From: Blastomyces gilchristii SLH14081
Taxonomy: Eukaryota; Ascomycota; Eurotiomycetes; Onygenales; Ajellomycetaceae
Length of the DNA: 64,000 bases
NCBI RefSeq assembly: GCF_000003855.2
Contig: NW_003101682.1
Coordinates: 7,331,314 to 7,395,313 of the forward strand
Direction of reading: 5' to 3'
Shown here: positions 1 to 28,065 of the stretch, piece by piece
How positions within the stretch are numbered: the stretch's first letter is position 1
Layout of the letters: every line of letters begins with the position of its first letter
Made by a program: the position numbers and the translations under genes
The notes under the pieces: model-generated
What the model was told of the DNA's origin: nothing
The model's input: the letters and a program-made list of their open reading frames with translations, nothing else
The model's database searches: none

Positions 1-887
1 TGAGTGAGATGAATGAAGAAGTTCTGTTAATTCTTTATACTCAGACTAGATAACTACAGAAGATGATCAAGTTCAAACTTGAAATCTCAAACACAGTTCA
101 AAAAACATTGAAAATTCCTAGTATAATCACTGACTCTTTATCTTACTCTTCTTCTTTCTTTTTTCCTACTTCTTCTTCTTCTTTGAATTAGAAGAAAACA
201 TATACTCAAGCAGCTGAATCTGCTGTCTCTAAATCTGCTGTCTCAAAACCTGCTTAAAATCCTGAGAAAACTGAGAAGAATACTGCTCATATCTCTATTC
301 ATAGAAAAGTGAAAAAGAAAATGTAAAAAGAGAAAAACTTCTAAATCTTCAGAAATAGAAGACTTATTCTCAAAGTCTTAAATCAGAACATTCTGCAAAG
401 AAACAATCTAAACTCAAATCTCATTTTCAGAATCAGAAATAAAATTAATCAGCAGTTCTTTTCTCAGTTAATAACTGATATTGAAGTTTAAAAACCAGTT
501 ATAGCTTTAATTAAGCTATCATTCTTTGAAAACTTCATCATTCTGACTACAATGCCTGAATTCAGTGCTGAATTCCTTATTTAGAATGCAAATCTCTGAA
601 AGTCAGCAGTAGAATCTTTGTTAAACACAACAATTCTATCTGAAAGAGATGAAAAGTGAGACAAATTCATTCTTCATAATATTTCAGTTGAAATTTTTGA
701 CTGTGAAGAAGAAATGCTACTTCTTAAAAATGAATTGAAAGAATACAACTCTATTCAACTGAGAAAGAAGCCTGTATGACTAAATTCAATTAAGTTCAGA
801 TAAAGCAGGAGAAATGCCTCTATTCTAGTATATATAAAAATACTTAAACAGTCAAAAATCTCTGAAGTAAGAGTAGCAGGTTTAAAA

Positions 888-1166
888 ATGAGAGTTCATG
901 AACACAAAGACTCAAGAATGAATCTCAAAGCTCAAACACAGTGTTTAAACTGTCAAAGATATGAACACTTTGCAATCTCATGTTTTAGAGACTCAAAATG
1001 TGCATTCTGTGTCAGAGATTACAAAACTAGTAAGTATAAATGTGAAATATGCTTAAAAAGAGATGAAATATATCAACACACTCTGCTTAAGTGCTCTAAT
1101 TGTAAAGAAAAACATGCATCTAGCTTAAAAGAATGTATGTTTACTTCTAGAACTCAAAAAAACTGA
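888..1166 (+). pseudogene. LINE-A ORF1 fragment with CCHC zinc knuckles
   Basis: A 92-codon open stretch of the nucleic-acid-binding ORF1 protein. It has a knuckle CLNCQRYEHFAISC (C-X2-C-X4-H-X4-C), then CAFC and further Cys pairs (CEIC, CSNC), a pattern typical of LINE ORF1/gag-like proteins that coat the element RNA. The first Met is probably internal: the same reading continues upstream with interruptions through about position 1 and downstream to about 1460. The surrounding DNA is RIP-like, so this is a remnant and not a working gene. Confidence 0.75.
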
Positions 1167-1469
1167 AGAAAAGATAAAGCTTAAAGTCAATCTAGAACTG
1201 AAGAGAAGAGTCAAGTCAGTAGACTTACAACTGCAAGCTTAAAAAGAAGAAACTCTCAACTATCTAAATCTTCACACTTCAATTCTTCAGCTAAATGTAA
1301 ACAGAATTTGAATTCTCAAACTTCTGTTAAGATTAGAGAATTGAGAAATAACTCTGATGATAAACTAGATATAATACAAGCAGTTGAGATCTCTACTTTT
1401 CAAAATAGTTGTAATCTACTATCTGATGATAGTAACTAGATTCTACTCTATCTCTACTCTCTTTTAGTA

Positions 1470-4400
1470 TGAATATACAACAAAAACAATAAAAAAAGTT
1501 TAAAAACTCTTCAAAAATCACATTTATTCAAAATAATGTAGATAGAAACTTAAATTATATTTATTCTTATCTTTAAATTGTATTTAAATAAAAAGTTGAT
1601 TTTATACTACTTCAGAAACTGAATTTTGATACTGAGTAAAATTATATTATTTCTCATTCAAGCTACTACTGCTTTCTATCTCAAAAGTCTGAGATAAAGT
1701 CAAGAGTAGTGATCTATGAAAGAAAGAGATCAAGATATCAATTTAATCTAAGATTTGATATCATGTCTGACTCTGATATTCTGATGAGTGATATTATAAA
1801 TAAAGAAAATGAGTTTAATACTATACAGCTTATAAATATCTATAATAAAAAGTCATTGAAGAAAAATAACAATATCTGAATAATTAATAGAGAACTTCTG
1901 AATATAACTTCATTAAGAAACTCTATAATTATAGAAGATTTCAATGCATATTATCTCTGATGAAATTCAGAATGCAAGAGAGCAGTGAGAGCTGATAATC
2001 TGATTGAATAAATCTTTGAGCATTTAATAGATTTGATTAATAAGTCTGATCAACAAACATTCTTTAGAAAAGATATGAAACAGAAATCTATTATAGATCT
2101 AATCTTCATATCACAAAATCTAATGAAAAGAAGACTTGTAAACTAGTTTATTAATTTGAATAAGACATTAGAATCAGATCATGAGATTATTCAATTTGAT
2201 ATTGAACTGAGTGAAAAATAAATAAGTGAAAATCCTCTTCTCTCTAATCAGTTTAACTTTGAAAAAGCTGATTGAAAAGCAGTTAAAGAAAGCATAAAAT
2301 TATTAAAATCTGAAAGACAGAATGAGCTATATTGAAATTCTGGTCAAGATATCTCAAATGAAATGCTTGAGAATAGAGTGAAGCTTATTATATCTATTAT
2401 TCTAATAAGTGTTAGAGATAATATTTCAAAGAGAAAATCTTCTAAGTATTCAAAACCTTGATGAAATGAGAATATCTCATCTAAAAGAAAAGAATTAGCT
2501 ACTGTTAGAAGAGATTGAAAGAATGATGTAATATCTGATAAAGAGTTCAAAGCTGTCAGAAATGAATATTTTTCAGATATTAAAAGAGCTAAAACAGACT
2601 GCTGGAATAAATTTCTTGAAGAAGTATAAGAGAAGGAAGTTTTTAAAGCTTTTAACTATACTAAAACAAGAAGTATAGCAAAACTTCCAGTCTTAGAATA
2701 TGAGTTTCAGAATGAATCATATACAGCAAACTCTTTTAAGAAAAAATGTCAAGCTTTCATGAGAATTCTCTTTCAGAACTCACCAGATTCAGATTCAGAT
2801 TCAGAGAAAGAGAATATATCACTTCTCAACTACATTGATGAAAATGACTGGAAATGACCTGATCTTACACAAGATGAATTAGAGTCAGCTATCTTCTCAA
2901 GTTCTGTTAAAACTGCTGCAGGGCCTGATTCAATTAATCACTTAATTATTCAAAATACATATTTCTACTTAAAGAATGAATATTTTGAGCTCTTTTTCAA
3001 TCTCTTGAAAAATGAATATCATTCTGAATGCTGGAGAGAAGTCACTGAAGTGATTCTTGTAAAACCTAATAGAAAAACTTCAATTTCTAAGTCATATAGA
3101 GTAATATCTCTATTAAACTGTCTCAGAAAGATTTTAGAAAAGATAATAGCTACTTAACTATCTTTTATAAGCTCTATTAATAACTCTCTTTTATTCAGTG
3201 AATAAATAAAAGATAGAAAACAATGTTCTGCAATTGACACTGTTCTCTCAGTTGTTCATGATATTCAAATAGCAAAGCATGAAGATCTGGTCTCAACTGC
3301 AGTTTTTATTGACATAAAAGAAGCATTTAATCATGTTTCAAAGTCAAAGTTAATTCAGACTTTGAAGATGTTAAAACTGTCACTTTCTCTAATAAAATGA
3401 GTTAACTGTTTTATATCTAAAAGAATCATACAACTTTTCTTTGATGAAATAAAATAAGACAAGACTGAGATAAAAATAGAAGTATTATAAGAATCTTCAA
3501 TCTCATCTATTTTATTTGCTATATACACTGCATATCTATTCAAAAATAGAAATATGAGAATAGTGTGATCTCTGAGTTATATGAATGATATTGATCTAGT
3601 CTACAGCTCAAAAACTATTAAAGAGAATTTGAAAGTGATTAAAGAAGCTGCAAAGAAAATCTTTATTAGAGCAGATATCAATTAAATTCAATCTGATATG
3701 AATAAAACTGAGTTAATTCATTTCTTTTCTAGATTCAATGAGAAAGAACTATCTCTAACTCTTTTAAATAGAGAGATTAAACTCAGTGTAAATGTTAAAT
3801 GATTAGAAGTATGATTAAACTCCAAGTTGAATTTTAAATATCATATTCAATAAAGAACTGTCAAGGCAGAAAGGCTATTGAACAACATAATCAGACTATC
3901 AAATACAGAGAGAGGTCTATTCTTCCAGGCTATGAGACAGTTATATGTAGCCTGTATTACATCAGTAGCTGATTATGAAGTTCAAGTTTGATGAAATAAT
4001 TAAGAGAATTTCACTGAACTCTTTCAAATTCTGCAAAACAGAGCCTTGAGAAGAATTCTAGAAGTATTTAAATCATCTTCTATTAAAGCAATGAAAATTG
4101 AAGCTTCAATTTCTTCTTCTGCTATTAGATTTGAAAAGGCCTGTATATACTATACACTGAGAGTTATAAAGATGAGCTTAAATTATATAATCAGAGAAAG
4201 AGTCTCTTCTTCATTTTCATCAATTAACTCTGGAAATGAACTGAATTGAAATAGATTTCTTGATTGAAATGAAAATAATTCTTCAAAGAAAATGTCTTCT
4301 CAACTTTACAGACTATACTCTCTGATTAAAAATCAATTTTCTTCTTTAAATGTTGAAAAAGTGAATCATGAGAAGTTATCTCTCTGAAGAGAAAAGCTTG

Positions 4401-5431
4401 AATCTCTTATAAACTTACAAATAAGTGAACTATTAAAAGAGAAAGAATATGAACAGCATTTAAAGAGAATTTCTATAATCAATATAAAAGACTCTATTCT
4501 GATTTATTCAGATGACTCAAAAAATGAGAATCTGAATAGATTAGACACAGACATTGCTTATACTGAAGATAATATCAATTTTATCTCAGATTTCTAAAAT
4601 CTAGGCTGTGAATCTGAAGTCTTTGATACTGAACTATTTGCAATAGTGAAAGCTTTTAAACTCATAGAAATAAAATCTTATAAAAGAGAAAATAGTTTAA
4701 AAGAGACATGAATATTCTCTGATAGTCAAGCTGCTTTAAAAAGACTTAGAAATAGTCAGATTTATAATGATCAAATGAATCTTGAACTGATCTTAAACTC
4801 TGTTTTAAAAATTCAAAAGAGAAGAATATCAAAGCTGATAATTCATCTACACTGGGTTTCTGCTCATATGAATATTCATGACAATGAATTGACTGATTCA
4901 GCTGTAAAAAAGGGTGCAGAATTAAACAGATCTATTCAAAAAATTGTGTTCTAGTCTTTTATAAAGAGAAAAATAAAAGAATCTTGTTTAGACAAGTGAA
5001 ATGAAAGCTGGCAGAAATAAATGAAGAGTATACATTATTCAAGATTTGAAACAAAACCCAAGTGGAAATCTTGTTTAATTAAATATAAAAAGAAAATATT
5101 CTCATCTATAATACAGCTGAAACTAGAACATGACTATTTTAAATCTTATATACAAAGATTTGATAATAGATTTAACTCAATAGAATGCTCATTCTGCAAT
5201 ATAAATAAGAATCCTGAGTATATTGTAATGCACTGTGCATTATACAATAGTCTCAGAGCCAGATTGAAAGAGAAGTATGATCTAAATCAATTAAATATAA
5301 GATTCTTATTCTCAACTGAGACAGGAATTAAATACTTAATAGACTTTCTATCAGAAACTCAAGCAGCTATAAGAAAATGGCTAAATTCAGAATTATCTGA
5401 ATATGAAGAGGAGAAAATCAATCATATATAG
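1470..5431 (+). pseudogene. LINE-A ORF2 remnant: endonuclease, reverse transcriptase, RNase H
   Basis: Conceptual reading in shifting frames shows endonuclease motifs (EDFNA near 1938; KSIIDLIFIS near 2087; SDH near 2175). Reverse transcriptase follows, with AAGPDSIN near 2920, FIDIKEAFN near 3308 and the catalytic box reading YMND at 3578-3589, where YxDD is expected. RNase H-like motifs follow (SDDS near 4507, DTELFAI near 4627, DSQAAL near 4722, HWVSAH near 4852). The last 136 codons (5021-5431) are open and end with CSFC..H....C. The catalytic Asp to Asn change is a single G-to-A transition, as RIP produces. Tens of in-frame stops rule out function. Confidence 0.85.
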
Positions 5432-5806
5432 TCTGTTAAAACAGCTATATACTATCTTTTAATAATTTGTTTTGTTACAGTCTTTCTTTACTTTATCTTT
5501 TTCTTTCAATTTCTTTCTGTCTATCTATTTAATGTGTCTATCTTTAAGACTGTGTTCTCTTTTCCTTTGTCATGATATTGTCAAATGATTTCAAAGTATT
5601 AGAAGATGTTAAAACACTGCAGTTTGTAAACAGTTTTTATATTCTGAGCTGAAATTTTCTGATTTTGCATATCTGAAATTGATGAATGTATAATAGTTAA
5701 CTTTACAGATATAGGAAAAACCCTGAGAACTAAAAGTTCTCAGGTAGATGTCATAGTCTCTGACTGTATACATCAATAATTGAAGAATAATAATAATAAT
5801 AATAAT

Positions 5807-7776
5807 TTATAAATATCACAGAGGCTTCTACAGAGATCTGTGAAGATCAGATAAAGTTATTCTTCAGATTCTTTTTTATATAGATCTGCAAGATCTCTGT
5901 CATATAATAAGAGAGCTTATAGATTGATTCTCAGAAGAGTTTCTACTCTTCTATTAAATCTATTATCAGATTCTTCTTATAGTGAGAAGAAAGCTTAACT
6001 GTCTTTACTAAGCTAAATATCTCTATAAGATCTTGATATTTCTCTAGTATCTGAAGCTCAGTTTTCATAATCATGAAGTTCTCAGATATTTATAAAGTCA
6101 TTATATAGATAAGCTTATCTTCTCTAATTAACTCTATAGTATTAACTGATTCTATCTTTATAAGTAAGTCTGTTAACACTGATTGAAAGTATAAACCTTA
6201 CTTACAGACAGCTATGTGTGAATTGTGTCTTTAAAGTTATATAAGTCTTAAGTACATGTTATCTGTGATATCTGTAATAATTATAGTTTCTATAAATCTT
6301 CTTCAGATTCTGAAGAGATCTTGTAATTCAAAGATAACTCTTATAAGTCTTTCAGCTCTCAGATCTGAGTTCTCATACCCTGCTTATTATAAGAGCAGAT
6401 TCTTAGTTTTCATTATTCAACTTATTCACTCTGTGAGCTTTAGAGACACTACAGTGACCTAAGATTCTAAGTTTATCAATACTTCTTATACTTACAAAGC
6501 AGTAGTACTGCAGTGTAATCTCTTCTTATAAGTAAGTATTTTCATTGAGAGAGTAACAGATTCAGATATCAGCTTTAAAACTCTTAAGAAGACTGTTACT
6601 GACTCTGTCTATAACTTCTCAAATTTCTATTTTAATTTATCTGAACAGTTTATACAGAGATGTTCTAATTTAAAATAGATAAAGTAGAGTCTCTTTTTCT
6701 TAGTCTCTCTATTATACACTCTGTTTATAGAAGTTTATAAAGCTCTCTCTTTCTACTCAGTAGTCAGATACAAATCTCTCTATATCTTATCATCTTTTTC
6801 TAATAAATCTGTTCTCTATTATTCTGACTCTTATAGAGCTGATTGATAATTCACTCTTTACAAGTCTATAACTCTCACAGTGATCTGTAAGTGATGAATA
6901 AGAGTCATCAGTTTCTTCAGAGTTAAGAGCTTAGAGTCTTACTCAATAAGCTTGTTCTATATATCTTTATTCAGCTTCTTTATAAATATCATTATTCAGA
7001 TCTTATTTCAGAGCTCTGTTTTCACAGATCTTAATTTATATTATAATTTCATGAAGTGCTGTGAGTAGTCTTTATCAGATTTCTTATCTCTTTTTGTAAT
7101 ATTAATAATCACAGCTCAGATGTTCTCTGTTCAGCTTGTAAAGTCTCTTAATTTATTCTCTAAATAGATCTTGAGAACAGATCAGTGAGATCTCTTGTAA
7201 TCATTCTTTAAATAATTTAGTCAGTTCTTAACTTCAGTGTAGTAGAGATCTGTTATTATATAGATAACAGCTTCTTTATCTTTCATATTACATAGTTAAA
7301 CTTATGAGTCAATTTCAAATACAAACTTATAAAAGCTTTTATAGATTGTGATTTGATAAGTAATCTTAAGTAATTACAGCTTAAGAAAGTTTCTTTTCAG
7401 TTCACAGATATCTCTGAAGATTATGTCTAGAGACTCAGTTCAAGAATGTTTACAGATAGTAAGCATTTCTTATAGAAAAATAGCTTAATTCTGTAAGAGA
7501 TACTCAAGAATATTCTTCACTGAGATAAGTTTATTCATGAATTTGAAGAGTTTCTCTATTACAGATATAGAGAATAATGTTCTGTGAGTAATTAATAAGT
7601 TCTCTGAAACTTCTTTTATAAGAATTATTCATGATTTGAGTAACTGCTTCTAAGTGTCTGCAGTAGAGTTTATAGAAATTGAAGTATATAAGTTTCTAAT
7701 TCTTTCAGTTATAATAAGTGATTGCTGACTGACTGAGCTTGAAATGTAAGAATAAGTACTTACAGATGATTATTCA
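5807..7776. other. AT-rich RIP-like DNA, origin unassigned
   Basis: About 2 kb with the same composition as the neighbouring transposons and no gene I can support. On the minus strand a stretch around 7000-7300 reads for over 90 codons if TGA is taken as Trp and looks loosely gag-like (Lys/Asp-rich, regularly spaced Tyr and Trp), but I recognise no diagnostic motif. It is probably an old transposon remnant and served as the target for gypsy-A. Confidence 0.5.
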
Positions 7777-7781
7777 GATGT

Positions 7782-8325
7782 TGTCACGCTCCCGGCCGCG
7801 CCAAGGCCCCATTGCGGTTCCACACGGCTCATTGCTTCCATGCGGATGATTCCATCCATCCCGCAGGCCGTCCGAACCGGTTTCCAACCACTCTATGACA
7901 TCATTCGGATATATCATAGAAAGATCCGATTGATGAATATGAGAACCTCACTTCTATATGAGGTCAGCAGATCACTCTTCCTTGGTAATGAGGCGCTGCT
8001 GAGGTATCACTTCAGCTATTCTCACTTGTGAAATGAGAGAAGAATATCCGCCCATTGTCTATATAGAATAGCTAGATGCTGACTTCTCATCAAAGAAGTC
8101 AGTGATTTATTTTTCTTCTACTGAAATATATACAAGAGTTACTGTGTGTCTTATACAATCTTCTTAGTATACTAAGTATCACATCTGTGATATTCTCACA
8201 ATAACTCTGTAGCCTACAAGCTCACTATTCAAGCAAGATAGTCAAGCTCACTTATACAGCTTCTCAAACAACTACTTCTATATAATATCACTAACTAGTC
8301 ATCACTTCAGTTCTGTTATATTACA
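7782..8325 (+). repeat. gypsy-A left LTR (544 bp)
   Basis: It aligns end to end without gaps to 17263-17806. In the stretches I aligned, all differences are transitions. The first about 280 bases are GC-rich and unmutated (CCGGCCGCGCC near 7793), while the rest is RIP-like. The right LTR shows the reverse pattern. The LTR would supply promoter and polyadenylation signals of the element. Confidence 0.93.
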
Positions 8326-13135: not shown

Positions 13136-13138
13136 TAA

Positions 13139-13142
13139 GAAG

Positions 13143-13179
<37 letters not shown>

Positions 13180-14585
13180 TTCAATTATAGATGTATGCAG
13201 TCAGAGACTATGACATCTACCTGAGAACTTTTAGTTCTCAGGGTTTTTCCTATGTCTGTAAAGTTAACTATTATACATTCATTAATTTCAGATATGTAAA
13301 ATCAGAAAATTCCAGCTCAGAATACAAAAACTGTTTACAAATTGCAGTGTTTTAACATCTTTTGATACTTTGAAATCATTTGATAATATCATGACAAAGG
13401 AAAAGAGAAAAAGAACACAGTCTCAAAGATAGACACATTAAATAGATAGATAGAAAGAAATTGAAAGAAAAAGATAAAGAAAAAGATAAAGTAAAGAGAG
13501 ACTATAACAAAATAAATTATTAAAAGAGAGTGTATAGCTATTTTAACAGATTATATCTGATTGATTTCCTTCTCTTCATATTCAGATAATTCTGAATTTA
13601 ATCATTTTCTTATAGCTGCTTGAGTTTCTGATAGAAAGTCTATTAAGTATTTAATTTCTGTCTCAGTTAAGAATAAGAATCTCATATTTAATTAATTTAG
13701 ATCATACTTCTCTTTCAATCTGGCTCTGAGACTATTGTATAATACACAGTGTATTACAATATACTCAGAATTCTTATTTATATTACAGAATAAGCATTCT
13801 ATTGAGTCAAATCTATCATTAAATCTTTGTATATAAGATTTGAAATAGCCATGTTCTAGTTTCAGCTGTATTATAGATGAGAATATTTTCTTTTTATATT
13901 TAATTGAACAAGATTTTCACTTGAGTTTTATTTCAAATCTTGAATAATGTATATTCTTCTTTTATTTCTGCTAGCTTTCATTTCACTTATTTAAATAAGA
14001 TTCTTTTATTTTTCTCTTTATAAAAGATCAGAACATAATTTTTTTAATAGATCTGCTTAATTCTGCACTCTTTTTTACAGCTGAATCAGTCAATTCATTG
14101 TCATGAATATTCATATGAGTAGAAACTTAGTGCAGATGAATTATCAGCTTTGATATTCTTCTCTTTTGAATTTTTAAAATAGAGTTTAAGATCAGTTCAA
14201 GATTCATTTGATTATTATAAATCTGACTATTTGTAAGTCTTTTTAAAGCAGCTTGACTATCAGAGAATATTCATATCTCTTTCAAACAATTTTCTCTTTT
14301 ATAAGATTTTATTTCAATGAGTTTGAAAGCTTTCACTATTATAAATAGTTCAGCATCAAAGACTTCACATTCAGAGCCTAGATTTCAGAAATCTGAGATA
14401 AAATTGATATTATCTTCAGTATAAGCAATTCCTGTGCCTAATCTATTCAAGTTCTCATTTTTTAAGTCATCTGAATAAATCAGAATAGAGTCTTTTATAT
14501 TAATTGTAGAAATTCTCTTTGAATGCTGTTCATATTCTTTCTCTTTTAATAGTTCACTTATTTGTAAGTCTATAAGAGATTTAAG
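13139..14585 (-). pseudogene. LINE 3' segment (RNase H to tail) inside the composite insertion
   Basis: Reverse complement parallels LINE-A from about 4400 to 5806: the RNase H-like YSDD motif, the DNELTDSA-type motif, the terminal CX2C/H/C motif and the (TAA)n tail (about 13144-13178 on the plus strand). It has many stops and near-zero CG/CC/GG, so it was mutated like its relatives. Divergence from LINE-A and from 26926-28050 is almost all transitions. Confidence 0.85.
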
Positions 14586-15335
14586 ACTACAGGTGCTAGC
14601 CACCCGCAGGATGCATCTTAAGCTAATTACATTTAACCCTCTATAATTAACTGACCACCGTGTCTGTCCTCTCAGGCCAGCCACTAATTTCCAGGGGCAT
14701 TAGTTAGTGGCTGCCACCGCCCACTTGATGGCATACACATCAAGCTTCTGGTTGCTGATCTCGGCCTCATTAGATGCTCATAGGCCTATCAATCAGCTGT
14801 TGTGGCCTCACCCTGTGTTAGGGACTAATCATAGGCTTGATGACTGCAGTCCTCCCTGCCAGTATTAGGGCTTGGCAGGGAGCTTGCAGGCTCTAGCCTA
14901 TCAGAGTGCCCTGCCTAGGGTCTAGATGCGCGTCTAGGCCTGCTAGTCAGATGATTTTCAAAATCATTCCCTGTATTTGAGAGGGAGCTAGGCTCCAATG
15001 ATGGCCCTAGTTAGGGACTCACTTAAGTAGTGTATAATCACTACATTAGGCTTGACTCTATATCATTAGAACCTTGACAGGTGCACAGTAGAATAGTGAG
15101 ACATTGACACCTCATGCCAGCTCTGATGGGTGTTCACAGGATCTCACTTAACTAGTGGCATAGCTTGCAGTAGAGAGTTCTACCCCGCACCAAGCCTTAC
15201 TAATTAGGCTCAGCCCCTATTACATGGGGGCTTTCATGGGTAAGAAGTGGCAGATGCCAGTGGTGGGATTCGAACCCACGCACCTCTAATGTGTGCGGCC
15301 TTGGTTACCAGTCTTACCAACTGGGCCACGCTGGC
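14586..15335 (-). other. Unmutated 750-bp body of the composite element
   Basis: An abrupt GC-balanced stretch with abundant CC, GG and some CG, bounded on both sides by AT-rich mutated DNA. It contains no convincing protein frame of its own. Its left end joins LINE sequence at about 14585. I see no second copy in this window. Because RIP-type processes need repeated DNA, its intactness suggests a low-copy or recently acquired sequence, such as a Pol III transcript or read-through product captured by template switching. Confidence 0.7.
15255..15335 (-). other. tRNA-like sequence (SINE-type head) with A and B boxes
   Basis: On the minus strand the sequence starts GCCAGCG and closes with CACTGGC, pairing 6 of 7 in an acceptor-like stem, then A. 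An A-box TGGCCCAGTTGG lies at 15317-15328 and a perfect B-box GGTTCGAATCC at 15266-15276, within a 5-bp T-stem (GTGGG/CCCAC). A CGCAC/GTGCG hairpin looks like the long variable arm of a class II tRNA (Leu/Ser). The anticodon arm is too short and does not fold normally, so this is a tRNA-derived internal Pol III promoter and probably not a working tRNA gene. Confidence 0.75.
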
Positions 15336-15348
15336 TAAGAAGATTATT

Positions 15349-26910: not shown

Positions 26911-26925
26911 ATTGCATGAGTTAGT

Positions 26926-28050
26926 TATTATTATTATTATTCTTCAATTATAGATGTATGCAGTCAGAGACTATGACATCTACCTGAGAACTTTTAGTTC
27001 TCAGGGTTTTTCCTATATCTGTAAAGTTAACTATTATACATTCATCAATTTCAGATATGCAAAATCAGAAAATTCCAGCTCAGAATACAAAAACTGTTTA
27101 CAAATTGCAGTGTTTTAACATCTTCTGATACTTTGAAACCATTTGACAATATCATGACAAAGGAAAAGAGAACACAGTCTTAAAGATAGACACATCAAAT
27201 AGATAGACAGAAAGAAATTGAAAGGAAAAGATAAAGTAAAGAAAGACTGTAATAAAACAAATTATTAAAAGATAGTATATAGCTGTTTTAACAGACTATA
27301 TCTGATTGATTTCCTCCTCTTCATATTCAGATAATTCTGAATTTAGCCATTTTCTTATAGCTGCTTGAGTTTCTGATAGAAAGTCTATTAAATATTTAAT
27401 TCCTGTCTCAGTTGAGAATAAGAATCTCATATTTAATTGATTTAGATCATACTTCTCTTTCAATCTGACTCTGAGACTATTGTATAATGCACAGTGCATT
27501 ACAATATGCTCAGAATTCTCATTTGCATTGCAGAATGAGCATTCTATTGAGTCAAATCTATCATCAAATCTTTGTATATAAGATTTGAAATAGCCATGTT
27601 CTAGTTTCAGCTGTATTATAGATGAGAATATTTTCTTTTTACATTTAATTGAACAAGATTTCCACTTGAGTTTTGTTTCAAATCTTGAATAATGTATACT
27701 CTTCTTTTGTTTCTGCCAGCTTTCATTCCACTTGTCTAAACAAGATTCTTTTATTTTTCTCTTTATAAAAGACCAGGACACAACTTTTTGAATAGATCTG
27801 CTTAATTCTGCACCCTTTTTTGCAGCTGAATCAGCCAATTCATTGTCATGAATATTCATATGAGCAGGAACCCAGTGCAGATGAATTATCAGCTTTGATG
27901 TTCTTCTCTTTTGAATTTTCAAAACAGAGTTTAAGATCAGTTCAAGATTCATTTGATCATTATGAATCTGACTATTTCTAAGTCTTTTTAAAGCAGCTTG
28001 ACTATCAGAGAATATTCATGCCTCTTTCAAACTATTTCCTCTTTTATGAG
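26926..28050 (-). mobile_element. LINE-C: 5'-truncated LINE insertion with 15-bp TSD
   Basis: The 15-mer ATTGCATGAGTTAGT lies at 26911-26925 and 28051-28065, immediately outside a LINE fragment on the minus strand whose (TAA)n tail is at about 26926-26941. It corresponds to LINE-A from about 4670 to the tail, so it lacks everything upstream of the late RNase H. It is the innermost level of the nest and the least mutated LINE copy, retaining Trp codons and some CC/GG. Confidence 0.93.
27296..27952 (-). CDS. LINE-C: intact C-terminal frame of ORF2 (RNase H end and Cys/His domain)
   Basis: An uninterrupted 218-codon frame, the longest in the AT-rich half. It starts inside RNase H, shows HWVPAHMNIHDNELADSAA (the conserved WVPGH..I.GNE.AD region, with Gly positions replaced) and ends with CSFCNANENSEHIVMHC, the C-X2-C-X8-H-X4-C motif typical of the LINE C-terminus. 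The first Met is internal, and there is no promoter or full protein, so the frame is simply unmutated remnant. TGG codons preserved here are TGA or TAG in the other two copies. Confidence 0.7.
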   Translation of the reverse strand: MNLELILNSVLKIQKRRTSKLIIHLHWVPAHMNIHDNELADSAAKKGAELSRSIQKVVSWSFIKRKIKESCLDKWNESWQKQKKSIHYSRFETKLKWKSCSIKCKKKIFSSIIQLKLEHGYFKSYIQRFDDRFDSIECSFCNANENSEHIVMHCALYNSLRVRLKEKYDLNQLNMRFLFSTETGIKYLIDFLSETQAAIRKWLNSELSEYEEEEINQI

Positions 28051-28065
28051 ATTGCATGAGTTAGT

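Follow-up and report, generated by a model that had tools for sequence, protein, structure and literature searches.

The insertion at positions 13136-15348 of the window, by which we mean the whole 64,000-nucleotide stretch of Blastomyces gilchristii SLH14081 that was analyzed, is very probably one member of a large MINE-type family of chimeras made by a LINE, in which a second RNA has been captured repeatedly at breaks of the LINE. A single insertion spans this interval, with a 13-bp target-site duplication (TSD), a GC-rich body of 749 nt and then a 5′-truncated LINE. The family reading is supported directly by this architecture, by the TSDs, by the constant ends of the body, by the variable and motif-bound ends of the LINE and by repeated independent events. 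The parts of the window insertion are as follows.

13136..15348, no strand: whole insertion including both target-site copies, from the TSD comparison
15336..15348, no strand: TSD copy on the body (5′) side, TAAGAAGATTATT
13136..13148, no strand: TSD copy on the LINE tail (3′) side, TAAGAAGATTATT
14587..15335, minus: body, a 749-nt GC-rich non-coding unit, both ends constant in other copies
15255..15335, minus: tRNA-like head (RF00005, 29.9 bits), with a good acceptor stem and T arm and degenerate D and anticodon arms
15317..15328, minus: A-box-like word TGGCCCAGTTGG, exact in 32 of 37 bodies
15266..15276, minus: B-box-like word GGTTCGAATCC, exact in 28 of 37 bodies
14587..14609, minus: 9-bp hairpin whose base is the body 3′ end, -14.2 kcal/mol in the window copy
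13149..14586, minus: last part of a 5′-truncated LINE with a (TAA)n tail, 96.6% identical to copy L004
14064..14489, minus: LINE RNase H domain, approximate and with stops, transferred from the Pfam match on L007
13220..13242, minus: perfect hairpin close to the LINE 3′ end, found by eye

The 13-bp length of the window TSD was recovered by mechanical comparison of the flanks, and the body, placed at 14586-15335 by the sequence-only reading, was corrected to 14587-15335, which gives 749 nt. The assembly has 74.8 Mb in 75 contigs, and the window is AT-rich up to about 32 kb and GC-richer after that. One septin encoded in the GC-richer part shares 93% identity with a septin of Blastomyces percursus. 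Judged by eye, the target may well be a gypsy chromodomain; the 43-aa piece of it that was searched gave no Pfam match.

In total 92 distinct body copies, none of them within 800 bp of another, were examined, and all 92 adjoin the same LINE, in sense, at the GTAG which ends the body. They are composed of 34 copies from the initial window-derived searches, 37 found with the 3′-terminal 200 bp of a single body and 21 others (3 by sequence pattern, L054 by a LINE query and 17 from further body matches), and they include the best 40 of the 265 matches of the window body and all 40 top matches of a hardly mutated body query. They are a minority of the first-look candidates, which are unverified and number 242-269 for the body queries and 2042-2389 for the LINE queries. 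No solo body was present among the 92 examined copies. A source copy in the form of the body end followed by TTTT was also looked for and rejected, as the three loci that matched (L110, L111 and L113) are all joined to the LINE. The joint of L110 rests on 24 nt, of which 20-22 are identical, followed by another repeat that is LTR-like by eye, and in L113 the body stands before the LINE's own 5′ end.

Where both ends of a composite were in hand, 17 of 18 had their own TSD of 12-17 bp round body and LINE together, whereas 306 mismatched pairs of flanks, taken as control, gave 9 bp at most; the window TSD is therefore not a chance match. For the exception, L017, the LINE end that was compared is that of a small piece inserted within the LINE. 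Two claims of the sequence-only reading are thus borne out, namely that the 13-bp duplication is real and that one event carried head, body and LINE end. Its proposal that other copies would be found was upheld as far as their own TSDs are concerned, so that the body is a mobile family and single-copy DNA is ruled out; the further expectation of one and the same LINE position was not, since the junctions fall on 59 sites.

The body has about 50% GC and starts, on the minus strand, with the tRNA-like head. Against the Rfam tRNA model RF00005 the window head scored 29.9 bits (E 0.0012, gathering score 29) and the heads of the less mutated copies L034, L110 and L019 scored 34.3 bits, the higher-scoring heads belonging to copies in which more C and G are preserved. 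The covariance check thus agrees with the tRNA-like head proposed before. ARAGORN called no tRNA in the whole window, and in the head it called one only with an implausible intron. By its sequence the head is tRNA-like and has promoter-like words that resemble the A- and B-box consensus, and these boxes suggest that the body RNA is probably a transcript of RNA polymerase III (Pol III). A weak T4 run occurs near nt 373 of the body in 37 of 37 bodies and could end such transcription early.

Both ends of the body are sharply defined. The 3′ end is constant in the 92 copies and forms the base of the 9-bp hairpin, which reaches -16.0 kcal/mol in L034, L023 and L024 and could halt trimming at this end. 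All 34 first copies begin exactly at body nt 1, in a set that consists of full-length matches, and the exact 5′ end was also found in 33 of 37 copies picked by their 3′ end only; two of the four exceptions lack some 15 nt, the third sits at the end of a contig and the fourth in low-complexity DNA. No match to an Rfam ribozyme was obtained at the body end with E up to 5, and the word CTGATGA, checked for the same purpose, is absent there. The longest open stretch in a hardly mutated body has at most 54 codons and the body is non-coding. The frame 14684-14385 (minus), earlier noted as crossing the junction into RNase H, turned out to be an unconserved accident of one junction, because the LINE copies inspected are stop-ridden, the junctions differ from copy to copy and the hardly mutated body has no stretch above 54 codons.

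On the LINE side 91 of the 92 junctions were mapped (L106, with 28 of 40 bases matched, was left out), and they fall on 59 LINE positions from 159 to 7570 of about 7880. The busiest sites in this map are 6736 with seven junctions, 6133 with six and 6243 with four. The junctions have the motif AAA|TC, with A at -3 in 51, A at -2 in 39, A at -1 in 40, T at +1 in 44 and C at +2 in 30 of the 59 sites, against a base background of A 0.39, T 0.32 and C 0.15. At least four of the five motif bases are present at 33 of 60 sites (merged slightly differently) versus 4.5% of LINE positions. The AAA side of the motif is not copied and simple homology does not account for it. Pairing of a U tail with the A run, considered as its cause, was weakened by the fall from 51 of 59 sites with A at -3 to 29 of 59 at -4.

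A census of site 6736, restricted to copies lacking A at -1, yielded 25 matches, of which 14 are joined to a body, seven of them known from 14 bases of upstream sequence alone, 10 are uninterrupted LINE and one is neither. At least 14 body copies thus share this one base. The copy that is neither, C20, is a truncated LINE lacking a body; its TSD measures up to 16 bp, of which the first TAA may be tail, and since this copy was found via the hot spot it is no random control. A second body-less copy, in the window at 26925-28053 (minus), is flanked by a 15-bp TSD, and its start lies no more than about two bases from 6736. These two copies indicate that some 5′ breaks at the hot spot need no body. 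The body-less copies L053 and L059 start elsewhere and without the motif, and the TSDs of the three body-less copies that were met otherwise than via the hot spot are 12-15 bp; the body-less control copies with a TSD are only four in number and mixed in outcome. At site 6133 the census gave 43 matches, six with a body by eye and almost all of the rest LINE carrying G at -1.

We propose that target-primed reverse transcription would start on the LINE RNA at its (UAA)n tail and that the LINE RNA would be cut, or the enzyme stalled, at preferred AAA|UC places. The full-length 749-nt tRNA-headed body RNA would then be added from its exact 3′ end at the base of the terminal hairpin, copying would reach the exact 5′ end (tRNA position 1) nearly always, and the product would be sealed in with a duplication of 12-17 bp. 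Within this scheme the joining is rather likely to be a template jump of the reverse transcriptase and not a prior RNA ligation, and template switching has been argued for the same anatomy in MINE, in the parts of that report at hand (PMC2104539). The alternative, in which an RNA ligase joins the body RNA to a cut LINE RNA and the LINE machinery copies the chimera in one run, is the less favored course and seems to us rather doubtful. Both routes lead to an identical product, and the sharp LINE-side motif suits ligation equally well, as do the base-exact end of the body and the bodies which are nearly always complete; ligation is also one of two routes proposed for U6-LINE-1 chimeras in the available part of PMC13174262. 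Against it, no known nuclease cutting AAA|UC was identified, and the published reading for MINE, in the same parts of the source, is template switching (PMC2104539).

The variants of the body show whether the chimera was made once or many times. Pairs among 37 bodies differ on average by 53 transitions and 2.7 transversions, and of 1380 deviations from the majority base 1082 are C>T or G>A changes, a pattern as would be expected of RIP-like mutation. Six columns with transversions or indels divide the bodies into six haplotypes. Two CpG-rich haplotypes coexist (mean CpG 28.2 and 25.6), and others look old, with mean CpG of 7.0 and 12.0 and two copies each. When pairs of copies with the same LINE site were compared, the haplotypes differed in four of five, only L033 and L034 sharing one. 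The haplotypes and these pairs together imply that several body sources were active and that the same LINE sites were used repeatedly, and, with the 59 junction sites, that the body was fused to LINE pieces again and again and was not part of one travelling chimera.

It is accordingly improbable that one or a few body-LINE chimeras served as masters in the manner of SINEs and multiplied as complete units. The promoter-like boxes preserved in most bodies and the junctions held in common (at least 14 at 6736 and six at 6133) could be taken for such spreading, and L033 and L034, which agree in both site and haplotype, make a limited spread of a ready-made composite possible. The 59 different LINE sites and the differing haplotypes in four of five same-site pairs speak against it, as does, in a weak test, the visible 5′ shortening within the body in only two of 37 copies. 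The SINE-like element of fixed structure put forward by the sequence-only reading was given up on the same grounds, the LINE junction being variable.

The partner LINE is about 7.7 kb long, and the piece in the window is its last 1.43 kb or so. With stops read as X, copy L007 matched the Pfam families RVT_1 (E 1.9e-16) and RNase_H (E 1.3e-10), and stops are abundant in the LINE copies examined. The earlier description of the window piece as a LINE end including RNase H stands for its length, and the domain is confirmed on L007; the window piece itself gave no Pfam match and short LINE pieces gave none above the cut-off. Tad1-like non-LTR elements have been reported from Blastomyces (PMC4595289), and the portion of that paper at hand makes no mention of a chimera. 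Further copies of the partner LINE are present in the window at 26925-28053 (minus) and at about 3076-5804 (plus, the strand inferred from base composition).

Several long LINE copies begin, without a body, at a different GC-rich 5′ end (A158-166). Among the 30 LINE 3′ ends most similar to the window copy, a sample biased towards its close relatives, a 5′ limit is visible in nine and the rest run on; four of these limits are bodies (one of them the window copy), two are plain with a TSD, two are N runs and one is a contig start. A reading in which the LINE normally begins with the body, so that the copies would be internal deletions, is highly improbable: the body does always lie 5′ of the LINE in sense, and in L113 it precedes the LINE's own 5′ end, but long copies begin at the other 5′ end, truncated body-less copies with a TSD exist, and internal deletions would not combine an invariant body end with 59 different LINE ends. 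Two unrelated insertions side by side by chance, in favor of which there is nothing but the abundance of repeats in this region, are most unlikely, as all 92 copies adjoin in sense and one TSD encloses the pair in 17 of 18.

Returning to repeated capture at LINE breaks, we tentatively suggest that the body may be a retroposon that has no 3′ end of its own and no solo locus and that reproduces only via capture at LINE 5′ breaks. The composites would then be the source genes, Pol III would transcribe the body from the tRNA-like promoter, trimming would remove the LINE stub as far as the terminal hairpin, and the trimmed RNA would be fused to a fresh LINE break. The absence of a solo copy among the 92 and the six haplotypes, two of them little mutated and coexisting like subfamilies of a transposable element, are in its favor; against it, no old LINE stub was seen by eye behind the body in 34 loci, so the trimming would need to be exact. 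Assembly gaps could conceal source genes, and, gaps aside, several active variants without a solo copy are difficult to reconcile with a single conserved host gene in the assembly.

tRNA-derived SINEs with LINE-type tails have a tRNA-like head with A and B boxes, depend on a partner LINE, end in a fixed 3′ tail and move as a unit. The present element is like them in its head, which scores above the RF00005 gathering score and has the boxes, with ARAGORN negative unless an intron is allowed. It is unlike them in that the body ends at GTAG and the LINE piece differs between copies (59 sites).

The closest known system is MINE (WEIRD-MGL) of Magnaporthe grisea, which the sequence-only reading had named as precedent and whose architecture indeed matches. 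In the parts of PMC2104539 at hand MINE has, as here, a constant full-length non-coding 5′ part, a 5′-truncated LINE 3′ part of varying length in the same sense, junction hot spots with a short motif and no solo 5′ part, and its TSDs are 10-20 bp against 12-17 bp in 17 of 18 here. The 5′ part, the LINE part and the flanking repeats all agree, and the insertion is a MINE-type chimera in which the body is set beside WEIRD by architecture. The differences, within the same parts of the source (PMC2104539), are that WEIRD is 1.1 kb with no tRNA head mentioned whereas the body is 749 nt with a head, that the MINE motif is GCC*A/U against AAA|UC, and that 31 MINE copies compare with 92 examined here; body haplotypes and a hot spot also used by body-less copies were found in the present family. 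That work left the WEIRD RNA without an assigned function and found no solo copy of it (PMC2104539). The U6 snRNA-LINE-1 chimeras of mammals, in the available portions of PMC13174262 and PMC4476161, likewise have a full-length small Pol III-type RNA 5′, mostly in sense, a 5′-truncated LINE and TSDs, and template switch or RNA ligation is discussed for them; their partner has functional genes, in contrast to the 749-nt partner with a tRNA-like head here, for which no solo locus was found.

In the open-access literature, subscription papers being mostly outside its scope, MINE was the sole fungal precedent among the titles listed and no tRNA-headed partner was noticed. As far as searched, the tRNA head, the body subfamilies, the AAA|TC hot spots and the copy number are new relative to MINE. 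A second fungus with this architecture provides material for telling template jumping from RNA ligation, and it raises the questions whether such partners are parasites that exploit the 5′ breaks of LINEs rather than their 3′ tails and whether 5′ truncation of LINEs is partly sequence-directed.

Some minor observations were also made. The coding part of the LINE is almost without CpG in two long copies, and bodies beside the LINE keep up to 33. This contrast between body and adjoining LINE piece is seen in the window (13149-15335), in L034 and in L113; it may go back to mutation or to the composition of the template, although both repeats lie in one insertion. Near the composite of L034, positions 1-537 (minus) of that locus are a piece of small-subunit rRNA decayed by C-to-T changes. 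GC-rich stretches, tRNA- or SINE-like by eye, are located just past the LINE tail in L059 and L070 and ahead of a 5′-shortened body in L131; these three loci had no Rfam match at the gathering score. Another GC-rich stretch, antisense and tRNA-like by eye, adjoins the LINE near 6133 in L170 (G000:C28:221210-221700), with no TSD in the stretch fetched. Finally, about 30-40 bp of the LINE 3′ end, ending at 7882-7884, lie behind unrelated sequence in L025, L070 and L037, and these pieces are possibly SINEs or another LINE with a common tail.
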